A stretch of DNA of 64,000 nt from Arthrobacter sp. FB24. Its GTDB lineage: Bacteria > Actinomycetota > Actinomycetes > Actinomycetales > Micrococcaceae. Under the pieces are notes generated by a model. It ran no database searches, was not told where the DNA came from, and saw only the letters and a list, made by a program, of their open reading frames with translations. Both the position numbers and the translations under genes were made by a program. Positions 49,237 to 58,766 of this stretch are shown here, piece after piece. The DNA lies in the NCBI RefSeq assembly GCF_000196235.1, contig NC_008541.1:3906001-3970000 (forward strand), read 5' to 3'. Numbering within the stretch: position 1 is the first letter of the stretch; each line of letters begins with the position of its first letter.

Positions 49237-49360
49237 CGGGAGCGCGGCTGTTCTCGTCCCACCCAACTGACTGGCAGTGAATGTCGTGAAACGCGCGAAT
49301 GGCGACGTTAAATGCGAGCCGGTTGGGTGGGAGCCGCCAGGACGTGAAACCATACCGACC

Positions 49361-50218
49361 ATGGCCCAGAAGATTGCGTACCAAGGTGAACCCGGCGCTA
49401 ATTCCAATATTGCGTGCGCCCAGATGTTCCCGGAGCTGGAGAGCATCCCGTGCGCCAGCTTCGAGGACGCCTTCGAGCTGGTATCCGGCGGTGAAGCCGA
49501 CCTGGCCATGATTCCGATCGAGAACTCGATCGCGGGACGGGTGGCGGACATCCACATCCTGCTCCCCCAGTCCCGCCTGCAGATCGTGGGCGAGTTCTTC
49601 CTGCCCATCCACTTCGACCTGCTGGGCATCCCCGGCAGCACCATCGAAGGCGCCACGGAGGTCCACAGCCACATCCACGCCCTGGGCCAGTGCCGGCGCC
49701 TCATCCGCAGCGCCGGCCTGAAGCCTGTCATTGCCGGGGACACTGCAGGCTCTGCCCGGGAGGTGAGCGAATGGAACGATCCTGCCAAACTTTCCCTCGC
49801 TCCCCCGCTCGCGGCACAGATCTACGGCCTGGAGGTGCTCGCCTCGAGGGTTGAGGATGACCCCTCCAACACCACCCGGTTCGTGGTCCTGGCGCCGGAA
49901 AAGGAACTGCCCTCCCGGGAGGCGTTGCCGGGACCGGCCGTGACCAGCCTCTTGTTCCGAGTCCGCAACGTCCCCTCCGCGCTCTTCAAGGCCCTCGGCG
50001 GATTTGCCACAAACGGCGTGAACATGACCCGGCTGGAAAGCTACATGGTGGGCAACGAGTTTGCCGCCACCATGTTCATGGCCGACGTCGAAGGCCACCC
50101 CGAGGACCTGCCCGTCCGGCTGGCCCTCGAGGAACTGGACTTCTTCACCACCGCAGTGCGCATCCTGGGCGTCTATGCCGCCGCCGAATACCGGACAGGG
50201 CAGGCAGTCGCCGGCTGA
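49361..50218 (+). CDS. pheA: Prephenate dehydratase
   Basis: A 285-residue enzyme converting prephenate to phenylpyruvate. The periplasmic-binding-type catalytic part (about 1-185) has IAYQGEPGANSNIAC, MIPIENSIAGRV and the TTRF active-site motif (NTTRFVVL, about 166), and an ACT domain (about 195-275) contains the VRNVPSALFKALGGFATNGVNMTRLES phenylalanine-binding region. The GEPGANS start differs from the GPEGTF(T) form I would expect in actinobacteria and resembles the alphaproteobacterial branch. The ATG at 49361 gives the normal N-terminus; upstream GTG codons would add a poorly supported extension. Confidence 0.93.
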   Translation: MAQKIAYQGEPGANSNIACAQMFPELESIPCASFEDAFELVSGGEADLAMIPIENSIAGRVADIHILLPQSRLQIVGEFFLPIHFDLLGIPGSTIEGATEVHSHIHALGQCRRLIRSAGLKPVIAGDTAGSAREVSEWNDPAKLSLAPPLAAQIYGLEVLASRVEDDPSNTTRFVVLAPEKELPSREALPGPAVTSLLFRVRNVPSALFKALGGFATNGVNMTRLESYMVGNEFAATMFMADVEGHPEDLPVRLALEELDFFTTAVRILGVYAAAEYRTGQAVAG

Positions 50219-50227
50219 CGTCCGGGG

Positions 50228-52144
50228 CTAGACTGCCGCGGCCCGTCCCGTAGCCAGGAGGGGTGCGAAGAACGCACCGAGTTCCGCCGTCGCAGCCAGG
50301 GGCAGGACGTTGGCCACGTATTGGTCCGGGCGAACCACCACGATCACGCCGCCGCGGTCCAGGCCGCGCAGCTCGAAGATGTCAGCCTTCGGATCGGTGG
50401 CGTACACCTTCTCGTAATCCGTCAGCTGGAACGGGCCAACCTGCGGCTTGAACACCGCCGGCACTGCGTTGATATCGATGTCCGTGTGGGGCTGCTGGTA
50501 GATCACCTTCACGTCGAACCATGCGTCGAGGTCGGCGCCCGACGGCGTGGCGGCCAGCGGCGAGTCCGGCGCCTGCGCAATCCACTCGGCAAAGTCGGCC
50601 ACTGCTGAGGGGACACCCTGCTGTCCCGCTGCCGGCGCGGCGGCGTCGGCGAAGACATAGATGCGCCACCGTCCGTCGGCTGTGGCGTGGTGTCCGAGTT
50701 GCATGGGGTTGGTATCGCAGACCCGCACGACGGGCGCTGACTTGAAGCGCTTGCCGACGGGGAAACCGGCGGCCAGGTCCTGGTGTCCGGTGCCGCCGGT
50801 GAGCATCGACGGGGCGTACTGGGTCATGAATCCGGCCGGGAACTCGGCGGTGCTGACGTAGAAGTCCTCAAGCTCGGAAGGGCTCTCGAACTCTTCAGGC
50901 TTCTTCGCCATCATCGTGGACCACTCTTTGTCGAAGTCGATGAGGTTCTTGGCGATGACCTGACGTTCGTCCGAGTACGTGGTCAGCAGGCTTTCCGGGC
51001 TGCGGCCCTCGAGGACGTGGCCAAGCTTCCAGGCCAGGTTGAAACCGTCCTGCATGGAGACGTTCATGCCCTGGCCGGCCTTGGCGCTGTGCGTGTGGCA
51101 GGCGTCGCCGGTGATGAATACGCGCGGCGTGCGGGTGCCCCGCTGGTCCGGGAGGACGTCGTCGAACCGGTCAGTGAGCCGGTGGCCCACCTCGTACACG
51201 CTGTGCCACGCGACATTTCGGACGTCGAGCGTGTACGGGTGGAGGATCTCGTTCGCCTTGCGGATGATCTCTTCGATGGAAGTGTTGCGCACGGCGCCCT
51301 TGTCGTTCGGGTCCACCTCGCCGAGGTCAACATACATGCGGAACAGGAAGCCGCCTTCGCGCGGGATGAGCAGGATGCTTCCGCCCGACCCGGACTGGAT
51401 GGCGCACTTTGTGCGGATATCGGGGAAGTCGGTGACGGCCAGGGCGTCCATAACACCCCAGGCGTGGTTGGCGGCGTCGCCGGCCAGGGTGCAGCCAATC
51501 GCATCGCGTACCTTGCTGCGCGCGCCGTCTGCACCAATCACATATTTGGCCCGGACAACCTTCTCCCGGCCTTCCTGGGGGCCTGCAGTGTGAAGCAAGG
51601 TCACCGTGACCGGATACTCGCCCTCGCCGGTGACCTCCAGGCTCCGGAACTCAAAGCCGTAGTCAGGCGCCATGCGGGTAGGCGAGTTCGCCATGAATTC
51701 AGCGAAGTAGTCCAGCACGCGGGCCTGGTTGACGATGAGGTGCGGGAACTCACTGATCCCCATCTCGTCGTCCACCGCGCGGGCTCCCCGGATGATGCGC
51801 GAGTGGTCGGCCGGGTCCGGCTTCCAGAACGCCATTTCGGTGATGTGGTACGCCTCGGCGATGATCCGCTCGGCGAAGCCGAAGGCCTGGAAGGTCTCGA
51901 CGCTCCTCGCCTGGATGCCGTCTGCCTGGCCGATGGGCAGCCTGCCGGCACGGCGTTCCACGATCCGCGTGGTGACGCCCGGGAACTGGGACAGCTGGGC
52001 GGCGGCCAGCATGCCGGCAGGGCCTGTGCCGACAATCAGGACGTCCACTTCATCAGGAAGCTCAGTAGGCCGATTGATGCCTACGCCTGCTGCCGGCTGG
52101 ACTCGCGGGTCACCGGATACGTAACCGTGATGGTGGAATTGCAC
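50228..52144 (-). CDS. FAD-dependent aromatic hydroxylase (MobA-like, 3-hydroxybenzoate 4-monooxygenase family)
   Basis: A 638-residue class A flavin monooxygenase. Motifs are VLIVGTGPAGMLAAAQL (about 36-52), the DG motif VIGADGARSKVRDAIG and the GD motif FITGDACHTHSAKAGQGMN, followed by a C-terminal thioredoxin-like dimerisation domain. From memory it is colinear with MobA (639 residues) of Comamonas, starting VQFHHHGY like MobA's MQFHLNGF; this favours the GTG at 52144, which has GAGG 6 bases upstream, over the GTG at 52156. It would hydroxylate a 3-hydroxy-substituted aromatic acid next to the hydroxyl. Divergent from the homoprotocatechuate operon, so 3- (or 4-) hydroxyphenylacetate is a plausible substrate. 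Confidence 0.85.
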   Translation of the reverse strand: MQFHHHGYVSGDPRVQPAAGVGINRPTELPDEVDVLIVGTGPAGMLAAAQLSQFPGVTTRIVERRAGRLPIGQADGIQARSVETFQAFGFAERIIAEAYHITEMAFWKPDPADHSRIIRGARAVDDEMGISEFPHLIVNQARVLDYFAEFMANSPTRMAPDYGFEFRSLEVTGEGEYPVTVTLLHTAGPQEGREKVVRAKYVIGADGARSKVRDAIGCTLAGDAANHAWGVMDALAVTDFPDIRTKCAIQSGSGGSILLIPREGGFLFRMYVDLGEVDPNDKGAVRNTSIEEIIRKANEILHPYTLDVRNVAWHSVYEVGHRLTDRFDDVLPDQRGTRTPRVFITGDACHTHSAKAGQGMNVSMQDGFNLAWKLGHVLEGRSPESLLTTYSDERQVIAKNLIDFDKEWSTMMAKKPEEFESPSELEDFYVSTAEFPAGFMTQYAPSMLTGGTGHQDLAAGFPVGKRFKSAPVVRVCDTNPMQLGHHATADGRWRIYVFADAAAPAAGQQGVPSAVADFAEWIAQAPDSPLAATPSGADLDAWFDVKVIYQQPHTDIDINAVPAVFKPQVGPFQLTDYEKVYATDPKADIFELRGLDRGGVIVVVRPDQYVANVLPLAATAELGAFFAPLLATGRAAAV

Positions 52145-52253
52145 GGGGGTCCTCACTTCATTGTGTGGCGGCGAATCGCCGTCTTCGGTATTCGATATCA
52201 GAACTCAGTGTTCGATAATAGAAATCTAATGCTCAATCAAAACTGTACGCAGA

Positions 52254-52300: not shown

Positions 52301-52342
52301 TTGACGTTCCACGCTTCCTAGGCAATAGTTATCGTATACGAT
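52301..52342 (+). promoter_or_regulatory. Promoter and GntR operator candidate of the hpa operon
   Basis: TTGACG (52301-52306) is followed after 17 bases by AATAGT (52324-52329; TAGTTA at a 19-base spacing is an alternative). Immediately downstream, ATCGTATACGAT (52331-52342) is a perfect 12-bp palindrome with a GTATAC core, which is common in FadR-type GntR operators. It would overlap the transcription start. Confidence 0.6.
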
Positions 52343-52366: not shown

Positions 52367-53836
52367 TTGGAACAGGTCACCGACCACCTCCTGGCCGCGG
52401 CCCGCAAAGTCATCGCGGTGCATATCAACTACCCCAGCCGGGCAGCCCAGCGCGGCCGCACTCCGGAGCAGCCCTCGTACTTCCTGAAGCCGTCCTCCTC
52501 CCTGGCGATCGGGTCGGCAGAAGCCCCTTCAACGGTGGAGCGCCCGGCCGGATGTGAGCTCCTCGGTTACGAAGGCGAGATCGCCCTGATCATCGGCAAG
52601 CCGGCCCGCCGCGTGGGCATCGAGGACGCCTGGAGCCATGTCGAATGGGTCACCGCCAGCAACGACCTAGGCGTCTACGACCTCCGCTACGCGGACAAGG
52701 GCTCCAACCTCCGTTCCAAGGGCGGGGACGGTTTCACGCCGATCGGCCCGGGGCTGATCGCCGCCGACGCCGTGAACCCCGCACAACTGCGGATCCGCAC
52801 CTGGCATAACGGCGAACTGGTCCAGGACGACACCACCGAAGACCTCCTCTTTCCGTTCGCCCGGCTCATCGCGGACCTGTCCCAGCTGCTCACCCTCGAA
52901 GAGGGCGACATCATCCTCACCGGCACCCCGGCCGGCGCTTCCGTCGCCAAGCCGGGCGACGTCATCGAGGTTGAAGTCAGCACTCCTGACGCGACCACCG
53001 GGCGGCTGGCCACCCGGGTGGAGGAAGGCACGACGCCGTTCGCGGACTTCGGCGCCCGCCCCAAGACCGATGACCTCCAGCGGGAGGAAGCATACGGTTC
53101 GCGGGAAGCGGCCGGGCTTGCCGCCGTCGGACCTGTCCTCTCGCCGGAGCTGAAGGCCAAGCTGGAAAGCGTCTGCACGGCCACGCTGTCCTCCCAGCTG
53201 CGCAAGCGCGGCCTGAACAACGTCAGCATCGACGGCCTCACCTCAACGCGTCCGGAGAAGCGGATCGTGGGCCTGGCCCGGACCCTGCGCTACGTGCCGA
53301 ACCGCGAGGACCTCTTCAAGACCCACGGCGGCGGCTTCAACGCCCAGAAGAAGGCCATCGACTCGGTCAACGAGGGCGAAATCCTGGTGATGGAAGCCCG
53401 CGGCGAAAAGGGCACCGGCACCATCGGCGACATCCTGGCCCTCCGCGCCCAGGTCCGCGGCGCCGCCGCCGTCATCACCGATGGCGGCGTCCGTGACTTC
53501 TCCGCTGTGGCCGCCATGGACATGCCCACGTACTACTCCAACCCGCACCCCGCGGTGCTGGGGCGCCGGCACATCCCGTGGGACACCGACATCACGATCG
53601 CCTGCGGCGGCACCACCGTACAGCCCGGGGACATCATCGTGGCCGATGCGGACGGCATCCTGGTGATCCCGCCGGCCCTCGCCGAGGAGCTTGCGGACGA
53701 TTCCATCGCCCAGGAACGCGAGGAGGCGTTCATCGCCGAGATGGTGCAGCAGGGCCACAGCGTGGACGGCCTCTACCCGTTGAACTCCGAATGGCGGGCC
53801 AAGTACGACGAATGGGAAGGCCCCGCACATGACTGA
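52367..53836 (+). CDS. Fused fumarylacetoacetate hydrolase-family / RraA-family protein (HpaG-like)
   Basis: A 489-residue two-domain protein. Residues about 15-235 are an FAH-type hydrolase/isomerase domain with CELLGYEGEIALIIG metal-ligand Glu residues, NDLGVYDLRYADKG and EGDIILTGTPAGAS. Residues about 255-470 are an RraA/HMG-aldolase-type domain with ATLSSQLRKRG, GDILALRAQVRGAAAVITDGGVRD and CGGTTVQPGDIIVADADG. In the standard pathway HpaG has two FAH domains that decarboxylate and isomerise 5-carboxymethyl-2-hydroxymuconate-derived acid. Here the RraA part (family with oxaloacetate decarboxylase activity) may replace the decarboxylating domain. The start is TTG with GAGGAG 7 bases upstream. 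It overlaps the GntR gene by 8 bases. Confidence 0.85.
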   Translation: MEQVTDHLLAAARKVIAVHINYPSRAAQRGRTPEQPSYFLKPSSSLAIGSAEAPSTVERPAGCELLGYEGEIALIIGKPARRVGIEDAWSHVEWVTASNDLGVYDLRYADKGSNLRSKGGDGFTPIGPGLIAADAVNPAQLRIRTWHNGELVQDDTTEDLLFPFARLIADLSQLLTLEEGDIILTGTPAGASVAKPGDVIEVEVSTPDATTGRLATRVEEGTTPFADFGARPKTDDLQREEAYGSREAAGLAAVGPVLSPELKAKLESVCTATLSSQLRKRGLNNVSIDGLTSTRPEKRIVGLARTLRYVPNREDLFKTHGGGFNAQKKAIDSVNEGEILVMEARGEKGTGTIGDILALRAQVRGAAAVITDGGVRDFSAVAAMDMPTYYSNPHPAVLGRRHIPWDTDITIACGGTTVQPGDIIVADADGILVIPPALAEELADDSIAQEREEAFIAEMVQQGHSVDGLYPLNSEWRAKYDEWEGPAHD

Positions 53837-54512
53837 AACAGTGGTGGCCGGTAGCAAGTCCGAGCAGGCGTACGCGGCCGTCAAGGCCCGGATCGTGGAC
53901 GGCACCTACTCCCCCGGTTACCGGCTGGTGCTGGCAAAAATTGCCGAGGACCTGGGCGTCAGCGTGGTGCCCGTCCGCGAAGCCATCCGCCGGCTCGAGG
54001 CCGAAGGGCTGGTCACGTTCGAGCGGAACGTCGGAGCCACCGTGTCCGGCATCGACCCCACCGAGTACCTCTACACCATGCAGACCCTGAGCATCGTCGA
54101 AGGTGCCGCCACGGCTCTCTCGGCTCCACTGATCGGGTCGGCGGACGTGGCCCGGGCCCGGGCCGTCAACGAGGAAATGCGCGAATGCCTCGAGCACTTC
54201 GACCCCGTCCGCTTCACCCGGCTGAACCAGGACTTCCACAGCGTCCTGTTCGAGCACTGCCCCAACCCGCACATCCTGGACCTGGTCCACCGGGGCTGGA
54301 ACCGGCTAGCTTCGCTGCGGTCCTCCACGTTCCGGTTCGTCCCCGGCCGCGCCCGCGACTCCGTGGACGAACACGAGGCCCTGCTCCGGCTCATCGAATC
54401 CGGTGCGGGGGCCGACGAAATAGAAAAGGCGGCCCGCCTGCACCGCAGCGCCACCCTGGACGCCTACCTGGCCCAAGCCACCTCCACCGAACAACAGACC
54501 GCACAGCAGTAA
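53829..54512 (+). CDS. GntR family regulator, FadR/FCD subfamily (hpa operon)
   Basis: A 227-residue regulator with an N-terminal winged helix (about 12-75, LVLAKIAEDLGVSVVPVREAIRRLEAEGLV) and a C-terminal FCD domain (about 85-215), whose His and Asp residues usually bind a metal and an organic acid. It is translated from within the end of the FAH-RraA gene and followed after 9 bases by hpaE. It probably represses the operon through the ATCGTATACGAT palindrome and responds to a homoprotocatechuate pathway intermediate. Confidence 0.9.
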   Translation: MTETVVAGSKSEQAYAAVKARIVDGTYSPGYRLVLAKIAEDLGVSVVPVREAIRRLEAEGLVTFERNVGATVSGIDPTEYLYTMQTLSIVEGAATALSAPLIGSADVARARAVNEEMRECLEHFDPVRFTRLNQDFHSVLFEHCPNPHILDLVHRGWNRLASLRSSTFRFVPGRARDSVDEHEALLRLIESGAGADEIEKAARLHRSATLDAYLAQATSTEQQTAQQ

Positions 54513-54521
54513 GGAAAAACA

Positions 54522-56036
54522 ATGACGTTCACTGCCGCAGAAACCACGTCCCATTACGTTCCGCAGGACCTTCCCAGCCACATCCAGCACTACATCAACG
54601 GTGAATTCGTTGACTCCGTGGGCGGTAAGACCTTCGACGTCCTGGATCCGGTTTCCAACACCAACTACGCCACCGCCGCCGCCGGCCAGAAGGAAGACAT
54701 CGACCTCGCCGTCGCCGCCGCCCGCGAAGCCTTCAGCAACGGTCCCTGGCCGAAGATGAAGCCCCGCGAACGTGCCCGGATCCTGAACAAAATCGCCGAC
54801 GCCGTCGAAGCCCAGGAAGAACGCCTGGCCGAACTGGAAACGTTCGACACCGGCCTGCCCATCACCCAGGCCAAGGGCCAGGCCCTGCGCGCGGCAGAGA
54901 ACTTCCGTTTCTTCGCGGACCTGATCGTGGCCCAGTTCGACGACGCCATGAAGGTCCCGGGCTCGCAGATCAACTACGTGAACCGCAAGCCGATCGGCGT
55001 CGCCGGGCTCATCACCCCGTGGAACACCCCGTTCATGCTGGAGTCCTGGAAGCTCGCCCCGGCACTGGCCACCGGCAACACCGTGGTCCTCAAGCCCGCC
55101 GAATTCACGCCGCTCTCCGCCTCGCTGTGGGCCACCATCTTCAAGGACGCAGGCCTGCCCGACGGCGTGTTCAACTTGGTCAACGGCCTCGGCGAGGAAG
55201 CCGGCGACGCCCTGGTCAAGCACCCGGACGTCCCGCTGATTTCCTTCACCGGCGAGACCACCACCGGGCAGACGATCTTCCGCAACGCCGCCGCCAACCT
55301 CAAGGGCCTCTCCATGGAACTCGGCGGCAAGTCCCCCTGCGTCGTGTTCGCCGACGCCGACCTCGACGCCGCAATCGACTCCGCCCTCTTCGGCGTCTTC
55401 TCCCTCAACGGCGAACGCTGCACCGCCGGCTCCCGCATCCTGGTGGAACGCGCCATCTACGACGAGTTCTGCGAAAGGTACGCCGCCCGCGCCAAGAACA
55501 TCGTCGTCGGCGACCCCCACGACCCCAAGACCCAGGTGGGCGCCCTGGTCCACCCGGAGCACTTCGCCAAGGTGGCCTCCTACGTGGAGATCGGCAAATC
55601 AGAAGGCCGGCTCCTCGCCGGCGGCGGACGCCCGGAAGGCCTGCCGGAAGGCAACTACATCGCCCCCACCGTGTTCGCCGACGTCGCCCCCGACGCGAGG
55701 ATCTTCCAGGAGGAAATCTTCGGCCCCGTCGTCGCCATCACCCCGTTCGAGAACGACGACGAAGCACTCGCCCTCGCGAACAACACCAAGTACGGTCTGG
55801 CCGCCTACATCTGGACCCAGAACCTCACCCGCGCCCACAACTTCTCGCAGAACGTCGAGGCCGGCATGGTGTGGCTGAACAGCCACAACGTCCGCGACCT
55901 CCGCACCCCGTTCGGCGGCGTCAAGGCCTCCGGCCTGGGCCACGAGGGCGGCTACCGCTCCATCGATTTCTACACCGACCAGCAGGCCGTGCACATCACC
56001 CTCGGCACTGTCCACACCCCCAAATTCGGCGCCTAG
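54522..56036 (+). CDS. hpaE: 5-carboxymethyl-2-hydroxymuconate semialdehyde dehydrogenase
   Basis: A 504-residue aldehyde dehydrogenase of the HpaE type, oxidising the ring-cleavage semialdehyde to 5-carboxymethyl-2-hydroxymuconate with NAD+. The coenzyme region TPWNTPFML (about 165), base Glu in MELGGKSP (about 266) and nucleophile Cys in NGERCTAGSRI (about 300) are intact. An AAGGA ribosome site precedes the ATG. Placement directly before mndD and after the FAH-RraA and GntR genes supports the specific assignment. Confidence 0.92.
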   Translation: MTFTAAETTSHYVPQDLPSHIQHYINGEFVDSVGGKTFDVLDPVSNTNYATAAAGQKEDIDLAVAAAREAFSNGPWPKMKPRERARILNKIADAVEAQEERLAELETFDTGLPITQAKGQALRAAENFRFFADLIVAQFDDAMKVPGSQINYVNRKPIGVAGLITPWNTPFMLESWKLAPALATGNTVVLKPAEFTPLSASLWATIFKDAGLPDGVFNLVNGLGEEAGDALVKHPDVPLISFTGETTTGQTIFRNAAANLKGLSMELGGKSPCVVFADADLDAAIDSALFGVFSLNGERCTAGSRILVERAIYDEFCERYAARAKNIVVGDPHDPKTQVGALVHPEHFAKVASYVEIGKSEGRLLAGGGRPEGLPEGNYIAPTVFADVAPDARIFQEEIFGPVVAITPFENDDEALALANNTKYGLAAYIWTQNLTRAHNFSQNVEAGMVWLNSHNVRDLRTPFGGVKASGLGHEGGYRSIDFYTDQQAVHITLGTVHTPKFGA

Positions 56037-56086
56037 TCCCGGTCCGCAAGACCACCCCGACCCCCTTTCAAAGAAGAGAGAACGCC

Positions 56087-57172
56087 ATGAGCAACGTCAT
56101 CCCCAAGCCCTCCGTTCCGGCCCCTGACATCGTCCGCTGCGCGTACATGGAAATCGTGGTCACGGACCTCGCGAAGTCCCGCGAGTTCTACGTTGACCTC
56201 CTCGGCCTGCACGTCACCGAGGAAGACGAGAACAACATCTACCTGCGCTCCCTCGAGGAGTTCATCCACCACAACCTGGTGCTGCGCAAGGGACCCATCG
56301 CCGCCGTCGCAGCCTTCGCCTACCGGGTGAAGTCCCCCGCCGAGGTGGACGCCGCCGAGGCGTACTACAAGGAGCTCGGCTGCCGCACCGAACGCCGCAA
56401 GGAAGGCTTCACCAAGGGCATCGGCGATTCCGTCCGCGTCGAGGACCCGCTGGGCTTCCCGTACGAATTCTTCTACGACGTGGAGCACGTGGAACGCCTC
56501 ACCCAGCGCTACGACCTCTACTCCGCCGGCGAACTGGTCCGGCTGGACCACTTCAACCAGGTCACCCCGGACGTTCCCCGCGGCCGCAAGTACCTCGAGG
56601 ACCTCGGTTTCCGTGTCTCCGAGGACATCCAGGACTCCGACGGCGTCTCCTACGCCGTGTGGATGCACCGCAAGCAGACCGTCCACGACACCGCACTGAC
56701 CGGCGGCAACGGCCCCCGCATGCACCACGTCGCGTTCGCCACCCACGAGAAGCACAACATCATCCAGATCTGCGACAAGATGGGCGCCCTGCGCATCAGC
56801 GACCGGATCGAACGCGGCCCCGGCCGGCACGGCGTGTCCAACGCCTTCTACCTCTACATCCTGGACCCGGACGGGCACCGCATCGAGATCTACACCCAGG
56901 ACTACTACACCGGAGACCCGGACAACCCCACCATCACCTGGGACGTCCACGACAACCAGCGCCGCGACTGGTGGGGCAACCCCGTCGTCCCCTCCTGGTA
57001 CACCGAGGCCTCCCTCGTCCTGGACCTCGACGGCAACCCGCAGCCCGTCATCGTCCGCGAGGAAAAGTCCGAGATGGCCGTGACCGTGGGCGCCGACGGC
57101 TTCTCCTACACCCGCAAGGACGGTTCGCCCGAGGGTGACCGGACGGGCTTCAAGCTCGGAGTCCAGGTCTAG
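56087..57172 (+). CDS. mndD: Homoprotocatechuate (3,4-dihydroxyphenylacetate) 2,3-dioxygenase, probably Mn-dependent
   Basis: A 361-residue type I extradiol dioxygenase. The metal ligands His155 (LDHFNQ), His214 (MHHVAF) and Glu267 (HRIEIYTQD) and the second-sphere His200, His248 and Tyr257 all fall at the positions known for the A. globiformis enzyme MndD, with which the chain is nearly colinear from memory; that enzyme uses manganese rather than iron. It opens the ring proximal to form 5-carboxymethyl-2-hydroxymuconate semialdehyde, the substrate of the HpaE encoded 50 bases upstream. The metal cannot be decided from sequence alone because the Fe and Mn enzymes share their ligands. Confidence 0.96.
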   Translation: MSNVIPKPSVPAPDIVRCAYMEIVVTDLAKSREFYVDLLGLHVTEEDENNIYLRSLEEFIHHNLVLRKGPIAAVAAFAYRVKSPAEVDAAEAYYKELGCRTERRKEGFTKGIGDSVRVEDPLGFPYEFFYDVEHVERLTQRYDLYSAGELVRLDHFNQVTPDVPRGRKYLEDLGFRVSEDIQDSDGVSYAVWMHRKQTVHDTALTGGNGPRMHHVAFATHEKHNIIQICDKMGALRISDRIERGPGRHGVSNAFYLYILDPDGHRIEIYTQDYYTGDPDNPTITWDVHDNQRRDWWGNPVVPSWYTEASLVLDLDGNPQPVIVREEKSEMAVTVGADGFSYTRKDGSPEGDRTGFKLGVQV

Positions 57173-57174
57173 CC

Positions 57175-57960
57175 ATGCTGGATGCCAAGACGATCGAAGC
57201 CATTGCAGACGAACTGCTGGAAGCCGGCCGCAACCGCAAGCCGGTGCCCCGCCTGACGTCCCGCTACCCGGAGATGACCGTGGAGGATTCCTACGCCGTC
57301 CAGCAGCTCTGGCGGAGCCGTAACGAGGACGCCGGCCGAAAGCTCGTCGGCCGCAAGATCGGCCTCACGTCCAAGGCGATGCAGGCCGCCACCGGCATCA
57401 CCGAACCGGACTACGGCGCCATCTTCGATGACATGGTCCTCGAAACCGGCTGCTCCGTGCAGTGGGACCGGTACACGCATCCGCGGGTGGAGGTCGAGCT
57501 GGCATTCGTGCTCAAGGACGGGCTCAAAGGCCCCGGCTGCACCATCTTCGATGTCCTGAACGCCACCGACTACGTGGTTCCGGCCCTGGAGATCCTGGAC
57601 TCCAGGATCGAAATGGAGGGCAGGACCATCGTGGACACCATCGCGGACAACGCCGCGATGGGCGCCATGGTGGTCGGCGGCCGCCCGGTGAAGCCGGACG
57701 CCGTGGACCTCCGCTGGGTCTCGGCCATCCTCTACAAGAACCAGACCGTTGAAGAAACCGGCGTGGCCGCCGGGGTCCTGGACCACCCCGCCAACGGAGT
57801 GCACTGGCTCGCCAACAAAATCGCCGCCCACGGTGACGGCATGAAGGCCGGAGACATCATCCTCGCCGGCTCCTTCACCCGCCCCCTCTGGGTGTATAAG
57901 GGCGACACCGTCCACGCAGACTACGGACCCCTGGGAGTTGTGACATGCCGCTTCGAGTAG
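57175..57960 (+). CDS. hpaH: 2-oxo-hept-4-ene-1,7-dioate hydratase
   Basis: A 261-residue hydratase of the MhpD/HpaH family, related in fold to FAH enzymes. GRKIGLTSKAMQAATGI is the substrate-binding motif (about 59-75), and PRVEVELAFVL with its acidic residues supplies the metal ligands (about 102-112). It adds water to the product of the FAH/RraA step. It starts 2 bases after the mndD stop and overlaps hpaI by 16 bases. Confidence 0.94.
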   Translation: MLDAKTIEAIADELLEAGRNRKPVPRLTSRYPEMTVEDSYAVQQLWRSRNEDAGRKLVGRKIGLTSKAMQAATGITEPDYGAIFDDMVLETGCSVQWDRYTHPRVEVELAFVLKDGLKGPGCTIFDVLNATDYVVPALEILDSRIEMEGRTIVDTIADNAAMGAMVVGGRPVKPDAVDLRWVSAILYKNQTVEETGVAAGVLDHPANGVHWLANKIAAHGDGMKAGDIILAGSFTRPLWVYKGDTVHADYGPLGVVTCRFE

Positions 57961-58766
57961 AACCGGACGCCACGTTCCGCCACGCCCTCGCCGCCGCCAG
58001 CCGGCCGCTCATGGGGATGTGGGTGTGCTCCGGCAGCCCCCTGGTGGCCGAACTCTGCGCGGGGGCCGGCCTGGACTGGCTGCTGATCGACGCCGAGCAC
58101 AGCCCCAACGGGCTCGAATCCGTCCTCGCCCAGCTGCAGGCCGTCCACGGCTACCCGGTCCAGGCCATGGTCCGGCCGCCGGTCAACGACACCGTGCTGA
58201 TCAAGCAGTACCTGGACCTGGGCGTCCAGAACCTGCTGGTACCCATGGTGAACTCCGCCGCGGAGGCCGAAGCCGCAGTGGCCGCCACCCGGTACCCGCC
58301 CCACGGGGTCCGCGGTGTGGGCTCAGCCCTGGCCCGGGCCTCGCGGTGGAACCGCATCCCGGACTACCTCGCCCGCGCCAGCGAAACCGTCAGCGTCACC
58401 GTCCAGATCGAATCCGAAGCCGCGGTCGCCGCCGTGGAGAACATTCTGGCAGTCGACGGCGTGGACGCCATCTTCCTGGGCCCCTCCGACCTCGCCGCCT
58501 CCATGGGCGTGCTGGGACAGCAGGAACACCCCCAGGTGCGCGCCGCCGTCGAACACTGCCTCACCGCCGCCAAAGCGGCAGGCAAACCAGCCGGAGTGAA
58601 CGCCTTCAACCCCGCCACCGCCCGCAGCTACCTCGCGGCCGGCGCCACATTCGTGCTGGTGGGCGCCGACGTCGCCCTCCTGGCCCGCGGCACCGAAGCC
58701 CTCGCCGCCGAATACATCCGTCCGGAACCGGTGGTTGAGCCGCCCCACACCCCAGCCAGCTATTGA
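57945..58766 (+). CDS. hpaI: 4-hydroxy-2-oxo-heptane-1,7-dioate aldolase
   Basis: A 273-residue class II pyruvate aldolase (HpcH/HpaI family) that yields pyruvate and succinate semialdehyde. LLIDAEHSPN (about 41-50), the AMVRPPVND loop, IESEAAVAAVENI (metal-binding Glu, about 150) and FLGPSDLAASMG (Asp, about 178) are present. It is the last gene of the hpa operon. No succinate-semialdehyde dehydrogenase follows, so that step must be encoded elsewhere or be performed by one of the other aldehyde dehydrogenases. Confidence 0.94.
   Translation: MPLRVEPDATFRHALAAASRPLMGMWVCSGSPLVAELCAGAGLDWLLIDAEHSPNGLESVLAQLQAVHGYPVQAMVRPPVNDTVLIKQYLDLGVQNLLVPMVNSAAEAEAAVAATRYPPHGVRGVGSALARASRWNRIPDYLARASETVSVTVQIESEAAVAAVENILAVDGVDAIFLGPSDLAASMGVLGQQEHPQVRAAVEHCLTAAKAAGKPAGVNAFNPATARSYLAAGATFVLVGADVALLARGTEALAAEYIRPEPVVEPPHTPASY

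Follow-up and report, generated by a model that had tools for sequence, protein, structure and literature searches.

The closest described counterparts of the enzyme treated here are HpaG/HpcE of E. coli and the split pair HpaG1/HpaG2 (OPETD/HHDDI), which act at the same point of the pathway and likewise have one metal site of the FAH fold. According to a biochemical study from 2025 (PMC12718150), the HpaG counterpart is encoded by two separate genes in other bacteria, the metal-bearing C half of HpcE is assigned as decarboxylase, and the sharing of decarboxylation and isomerisation between the two FAH domains of HpaG is called ambiguous. In A. baumannii, three proteins serve CHM conversion, with OPETD and HHDDI being efficient only as a complex (its activity exceeds that of isolated OPETD 60-fold and that of isolated HHDDI 12-fold) and CHMI accelerating the process, and the unaided isomerisation of CHM is slow (PMC12718150). 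In hpa gene stretches of Deinococcus and Gemmobacter, one FAH gene and HpaF are found beside hpaE and hpaD, with no linked RraA. Hence, the two-FAH HpaG, taken as canonical in an earlier sequence-only reading of the locus described here, is one arrangement among several and not a general standard.

Growth on 4-hydroxyphenylacetate, homoprotocatechuate and tyrosine has been reported for Arthrobacter sp. Rue61a, for which a meta pathway was proposed (PMC3534580). From the C. aurimucosum genome, an operon hpaGLEDHI with gabD2 has been deduced, in which HpaG is read as OPET decarboxylase and to which an hpaF elsewhere on the chromosome is added (PMC2830990). Arthrobacter and related soil bacteria possess a fused enzyme in the 4-hydroxyphenylacetate operon where others have HpaG and HpaF. 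Among the matches listed in the open-licence PMC literature (titles and abstract starts), a description of an FAH-RraA fusion or of its RraA half was not found.

The fusion gene and its operon

In the 64,000-nt window, i.e., the whole stretch of DNA analysed, the operon is unremarkable except for its middle enzyme (Table 1). The reading frame of 489 codons was confirmed, with GAGGAG being located 6 bases upstream of its TTG. That a single FAH domain and an RraA domain are joined in one protein, as had been suggested from the bare sequence, is borne out by Pfam search with FAA_hydrolase (PF01557) at residues 14-218 (168.7 bits, cut-off 23.9) and RraA-like (PF03737) at residues 271-433 (108.5 bits, cut-off 24.5). 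Only one PF01557 stretch is present, in place of the two FAH domains of HpaG, and the models of the HpaG halves, TIGR02303 and TIGR02305, give 141.9 and 93.2 bits (cut-offs 276.4 and 228.65). Scores are also below the cut-offs of the RraA (RNase E regulator) models TIGR01935 (47.5 versus 123.8 bits) and NF006875 (48.3 versus 136) as well as of the aldolase/decarboxylase models NF006731 (84.2 versus 179) and TIGR02798 (78.1 versus 304.5). The protein belongs to the existing sequence family PRK12764 (NF009399), matched over its full length (897.5 bits at residues 3-486, cut-off 444) with no difference seen, and 39 of 39 members of an alignment match the model as well; this family is named just 'fumarylacetoacetate hydrolase family protein', without specific function in the name. 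Some relatives bear the JGI name OPET decarboxylase/HHDD isomerase. Relatives sharing 49-93% identity are full-length fusions, and a chance or frameshift fusion was consequently rejected. The best-scoring solved relative is HpcE (1gtt); compared with HpaG/HpcE, the fusion has one FAH domain, which lies outside the HpaG clade, an Arg for the lid His and an RraA domain replacing the second FAH.

Table 1. Features of the fusion locus, with positions in the window.
Feature	Position	Strand	Evidence
FAH-RraA fusion, 489 aa, TTG start	52367..53836	+	PF01557 and PF03737 matches, NF009399/PRK12764
FAH half, residues 14-218	52406..53020	+	E69/E71/D100 and K118 kept; R25/Q28 replace lid His-Glu
RraA-like half, residues 258-484	53138..53818	+	D355-x20-R376-D377; PRK08245 is best NCBIfam match
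GntR/FCD family regulator	53829..54512	+	8-base overlap with fusion
hpaE, CHMS dehydrogenase	54522..56036	+	TIGR02299, 666 bits (cut-off 638)
hpaD (VOC type), homoprotocatechuate 2,3-dioxygenase	56087..57172	+	TIGR02295, 447 bits (cut-off 321)
hpaH, hydratase	57175..57960	+	TIGR02312, 374 bits (cut-off 351.5)
hpaI, aldolase	57945..58766	+	TIGR02311, 323 bits (below cut-off 368.8)
FAD monooxygenase, phenol 2-monooxygenase type, divergent	50228..52156	-	PRK08294, 1073.5 bits
Palindrome ATCGTATACGAT, operator-like	52331..52342		starts 36 bp 5' of fusion start codon

The presence of hpaE, hpaD, hpaH and hpaI, likewise proposed before, holds, the first three exceeding their NCBIfam equivalog cut-offs and HpaI being the best-matching model for the fourth although its cut-off is not reached; for hpaD, profile searches were begun at 56075, four codons upstream of the ATG. 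All these genes lie on one strand, with distances of 9 bases between the GntR gene and hpaE, 50 between hpaE and the hpaD ATG and 2 between hpaD and hpaH, and with hpaH and hpaI overlapping by 16. From spacing and strand, we infer that fusion, GntR gene, hpaE, hpaD, hpaH and hpaI form one transcript, which would put the fusion under common transcription with hpaE, hpaD and the hydratase and aldolase genes, as is typical of HpaG. The divergently encoded flavoprotein is possibly the ring hydroxylase of the pathway, acting on 4-hydroxyphenylacetate. Among the best 80 of 554 loci, 28 have a gene of this phenol 2-monooxygenase type in the vicinity of the fusion and 2 have HpaB. A prephenate dehydratase gene (49277-50218, + strand) adjoins the operon, and such a gene occurs within 10 kb in 7/80 loci (best 80 of 554), all named Arthrobacter or Pseudarthrobacter.

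The palindrome upstream of the fusion may represent the operator for the GntR protein. The pattern ATNGTATACNAT has its only match in the window at this site; of 77 loci, 30 carry it ahead of the fusion, and these account for 30 of its 32 occurrences across 1.56 Mb of related loci.

Distribution of the fusion and search for HpaF and HpaG

The genome-contig scan confirmed 554 relatives, of which the best 80 were kept as neighbour loci; all 80 are fusions under Actinomycetota names. A census with fixed score thresholds and no positive control of its own gave GntR in 78, hpaE in 76, hpaD in 72, HpaH in 48 and HpaI in 47 of these best 80 loci. Where hpaD was not seen (eight loci), the contig ends early in seven cases but not in L132. 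The fusion is constant across the 80 loci and the downstream module is variable, with HpaH plus HpaI in 47 and a DapA-type gene in 20, never together; HpaH alone is seen in one locus, at a contig end, and neither module in twelve, of which seven end early and L105, L107, L108, L139 and L143 do not. The DHDPS (DapA)-family gene replacing hpaH and hpaI in the 20 loci, all within L072-L151, also occurs in L054-L057 and L062. Novelty of this replacement was not maintained, as an NCBIfam exception model that already exists, TIGR02313, gives the best match to the corresponding proteins of L051 and L062 (312 and 331 bits, below its cut-off of 396.7).

A draw of 394 Actinomycetes genomes was searched with the RraA half and with the PRK12764 and hpaD models. 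The RraA half matched in 31 of them, comprising seven already known full fusions and 24 above the PRK12764 cut-off; one stop codon, possibly the true gene end, falls within four of 25 over-cutoff fusion matches (G543, G650, G689 and G598, the last being also cut at a contig end). Over the curated cut-off, hpaD was detected in 32 of the 394 genomes, namely the 31 with the fusion and G682, and at all 32 fusion places (G567 has two) the contig also carries hpaD, at a distance of no more than about 4 kb. With linkage in 31 of 31 fusion genomes of the draw, the arrangement of fusion and hpaD exceeds what chance would give (Fisher p about 3e-45, ignoring shared ancestry). In the fusion-free G682, the hpaE match starts only at residue 172 and hpaD shifts frame (L162, 8953-11206), so that this operon looks like a decayed remnant. 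In a wider phylum draw of 396 genomes, eight exceed the fusion cut-off, seven of these being common to both draws, and all eight have an over-cutoff hpaD (on another contig in G338); five more genomes have an over-cutoff hpaD without the fusion.

HpaF (PF02962) was not found in the genome of the window in a profile search that detected three control records, and an HpaF of this type was therefore rejected for this organism, as had been supposed from the lack of an hpaF-like gene nearby. Nor was it detected in any of the 13 genomes of the phylum draw that have hpaD, a set including eight fusion genomes (three controls detected). Among 26 more genomes, of which 24 carry the fusion, a single weak match appeared (G567, 39.9 bits) on a contig other than those of its two fusions. 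For the co-occurrence that was to be surveyed, linked hpaD is thus seen in every fusion genome of the Actinomycetes draw, and HpaF went unseen in all but one of 32 fusion genomes, the exception being weak and unlinked. Around the best 80 of 554 fusion loci, neither HpaF (0/80) nor an HpaG-type FAH (0/80) was seen, an extra FAH being counted only if it resembled HpaG-type references more closely than it did the fusion.

PF01557 matches at least seven places in the genome of the window, i.e., the fusion, four short FAH proteins and two longer proteins with weak matches (31 and 25 bits), and hpaH, outside these seven, matches weakly as well (31.4 bits). None of the four short proteins attains the TIGR02303 or TIGR02305 cut-off. 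Three of the four short proteins carry the lid His-Glu. Two other RraA-like places are present, and a gene for a small 4-OT family tautomerase lies far from the operon at C4:886350.

On these grounds, the position of the fusion as middle enzyme of the homoprotocatechuate meta-cleavage operon can be strongly argued for, and good support exists for its standing in, as a non-orthologous protein and with HpaF lacking, for HpaG; this replacement appears very probable. The claim of a distinct enzyme solution for the pathway stands insofar as one fusion occupies the place of HpaG with no HpaF or HpaG-type FAH nearby, and has to be qualified insofar as the family PRK12764 and the JGI names already exist. 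The pathway role is half recognised already, because of these names and of the reading of HpaG in C. aurimucosum (PMC2830990). The fusion operon of G735 has the same gene order as the latter's hpa operon, and the C. aurimucosum hpaG is for this reason probably an FAH-RraA fusion. Database names such as methyltransferase (Paenarthrobacter TC1) or RNase regulator for such proteins would be corrected accordingly.

Conserved residues of the two halves

Residue counts refer to 91 sequences (best 80 of 554 loci, ten others and the window), of which at most 90 are distinct, L044 and L086 being identical. In the FAH half, the metal triad E69, E71 and D100 and the lysine K118 characteristic of the FAH superfamily are invariant (91/91), and the superfamily's lid dyad His-Glu is missing. 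At the lid, where HpaG2-type proteins have His-x-x-Glu, the fusions have Arg25 (90/90) followed by Gln28 (83 of 90; Glu in 7), one sequence having no letter at these sites. A tree computed for 36 FAH domains groups the fusions with a set of standalone FAH proteins (99/97) and separates them from HpaG1, HpaG2, the protein of Deinococcus and those of other actinobacterial hpa operons; support for the side holding HpaG, Deinococcus and these other actinobacterial proteins is 94/93, just below the star limit, with HpaG1 on a long branch. For human FAHD1, a His30-Glu33 lid dyad was proposed for the hydrolase reaction and a K43-D102-K123 network for ketonisation (PMC8398924), and FAHD enzymes with oxaloacetate tautomerase activity have been described (PMC10825186). 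Since the lid dyad is lost and metal triad and lysine are kept, the FAH half, read against these enzymes, looks like a tautomerase that would not hydrolyse.

In the RraA half, 42 of 227 positions are invariant in the 91 sequences, among them D355, R376 and D377 (D-x20-R-D). We take D-x20-R-D, in this exact form, to be the motif of the HMG/CHA aldolase/oxaloacetate decarboxylase family. It aligns to the aldolase/oxaloacetate decarboxylase 3noj and does not separate aldolase from RraA, because the RraA protein 3c8o has it too. With HMG/CHA aldolase (LigK type) and RraA, the fusion has sequence family and motif in common, and it differs from both by scores below their cut-offs and by the joined FAH domain. 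The best NCBIfam match of the RraA half is PRK08245 (240.8 bits, cut-off 208); this match and that of 5x15 extend to residues 484-485, that of 3noj ends at 436. HMG/CHA aldolase decarboxylates oxaloacetate, with R123K lowering kcat 181-fold, and in the presence of phosphate it exchanges the methyl protons of pyruvate at a rate of 604 per s (PMC5065237). Because this enzyme does both, the motif of the fusion would fit a decarboxylase and an isomerase equally. Standalone close RraA relatives are found under the names Streptomyces and Curtobacterium.

Possible division of labour in CHM conversion

In the pathway, CHM, the HpaE product, is ketonised, decarboxylated and isomerised before the next enzyme acts, and the fusion would carry CHM to 2-oxohept-3-enedioate, on which that enzyme acts, as HpaF plus HpaG do elsewhere. 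The most far-reaching form of the reading we prefer, with a probability of roughly 0.4, is that the RraA fold was recruited as OPET (vinylogous beta-keto acid) decarboxylase and fused to an FAH isomerase of non-HpaG lineage, giving a two-site enzyme for a pathway of Actinomycetes without HpaF or HpaG. The metal/Arg motif of the RraA half would bind the 2-oxo acid end and CO2 would be removed via a Mg-stabilised dienolate, and the FAH half, with Mg site and ketonisation Lys and no lid His, would perform the keto-enol/double-bond isomerisation. The halves are so assigned because the FAH domain has lost the HpaG2-type lid dyad and the RraA motif is preserved without exception. The full division of labour, with an RraA decarboxylase and an FAH isomerase, stands at about even odds; the allotment of the single steps to the halves is weak. 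A decarboxylating RraA half, as suggested in the sequence-only reading, is plausible given the family motif kept in 91/91, but it is not forced.

The latter restriction is due to four actinobacterial operons (G081, G032, G058 and G111) with one HpaG-like FAH and no linked RraA, in whose genomes HpaF was not found genome-wide; they argue against inferring the RraA function by elimination. These operons comprise a DapA-type gene, the HpaG-like FAH, hpaE, hpaB and hpaD, with a GntR gene in three of the four. In the drafts (93-97% complete), no RraA-like match is present in G081 and G058 and one each, on another contig, in G032 and G111. Their FAH lid is His in G032, G058 and G111 and not readable in G081. 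As such operons exist, a His-lid FAH alone may be enough for the whole CHM conversion, and the idea that RraA replaces HpaF only was not kept. Three further points speak against the proposed division. The lid dyad of FAHD1 is linked chiefly with hydrolase activity, and its loss might leave decarboxylation possible; the RraA half scores far below the aldolase/decarboxylase model cut-off (84 versus 179 bits); and in the Gemmobacter operon, an Arg-lid FAH that falls with the fusions in the tree (92/84) occurs together with HpaF and with no RraA within 40 kb, the nearest RraA-like gene of the plasmid being about 43 kb off in another setting.

The reverse assignment, in which the FAH half decarboxylates and the RraA half acts as keto-enol isomerase in lieu of HpaF or the HpaG N half, is the strongest competitor, albeit rather unlikely. 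It would agree with the FAH metal triad and Lys being intact (91/91), with decarboxylation being assigned to the metal-bearing half of HpcE (PMC12718150), with the fast enolisation of a 2-oxo acid by HMG/CHA aldolase (604 per s with phosphate; PMC5065237) and with HpaF missing from fusion genomes. However, Arg-Gln stands in place of the HpaG2-type lid His-Glu, and the single-FAH operons manage with neither HpaF nor linked RraA. Moreover, we know of no RraA protein serving as a dedicated tautomerase.

Improbable is help in trans, whereby the fusion would cover one step only and a short FAH, a further RraA-like protein or the C4:886350 tautomerase the rest. Candidates are at hand in the genome of the window (four short FAH proteins, three with a His-Glu lid, two RraA-like places and one 4-OT gene), hpaF was placed elsewhere on the chromosome by the C. 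aurimucosum authors (PMC2830990), and CHM isomerises slowly unaided (PMC12718150); but a small tautomerase was found in just 5 of 8 fusion genomes tested, the short FAH proteins score below the HpaG cut-offs, and none of the candidate genes is inside the operon. Very unlikely, finally, is an RraA half with a largely structural role, comparable to that of HHDDI towards OPETD, beside an FAH half doing all the chemistry, for although the A. baumannii complex exceeds its single proteins 60- and 12-fold (PMC12718150) and a degenerate RraA-like domain is retained in a fusion of R. erythropolis BG43, a scaffold would not need 42 of 227 invariant positions including D-x20-R-D.

The plasmid-encoded BG43 protein (WP_052741042; L152, 7983-9194) resembles the Arthrobacter fusion in having an FAH domain of the Arg-lid clade and an extradiol dioxygenase as neighbour; it differs in that the catalytic motif of its RraA-like domain is lost (24.0 bits versus a Pfam cut-off of 24.5) and in that a separate His-lid FAH is encoded nearby; an MhpA-like hydroxylase is a further neighbour. 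Loss of the motif beside a separate His-lid FAH is a suggestive side finding. Standalone RraA in hpa operons was considered as a way to probe the role of RraA, and the one case (G109) is too few for a conclusion: there, dienelactone hydrolase, standalone RraA with D-x20-R-D kept, a DHDPS-family gene and hpaD lie in a row (L051, 3350-7891), and no FAH gene was found in this stretch.

With one FAH domain having been naturally replaced by an unrelated fold, each half of the fusion could be inactivated by point mutation within one protein, which is of use given the ambiguity about HpaG. Besides, standalone Arg-lid FAH genes are found in L157, L158 and L160 beside genes for an HpaE-like dehydrogenase and a LigB-type dioxygenase (both below family cut-offs in L157, the dioxygenase also in L160), and these clusters possibly encode an undescribed meta-cleavage pathway in Actinomycetota.
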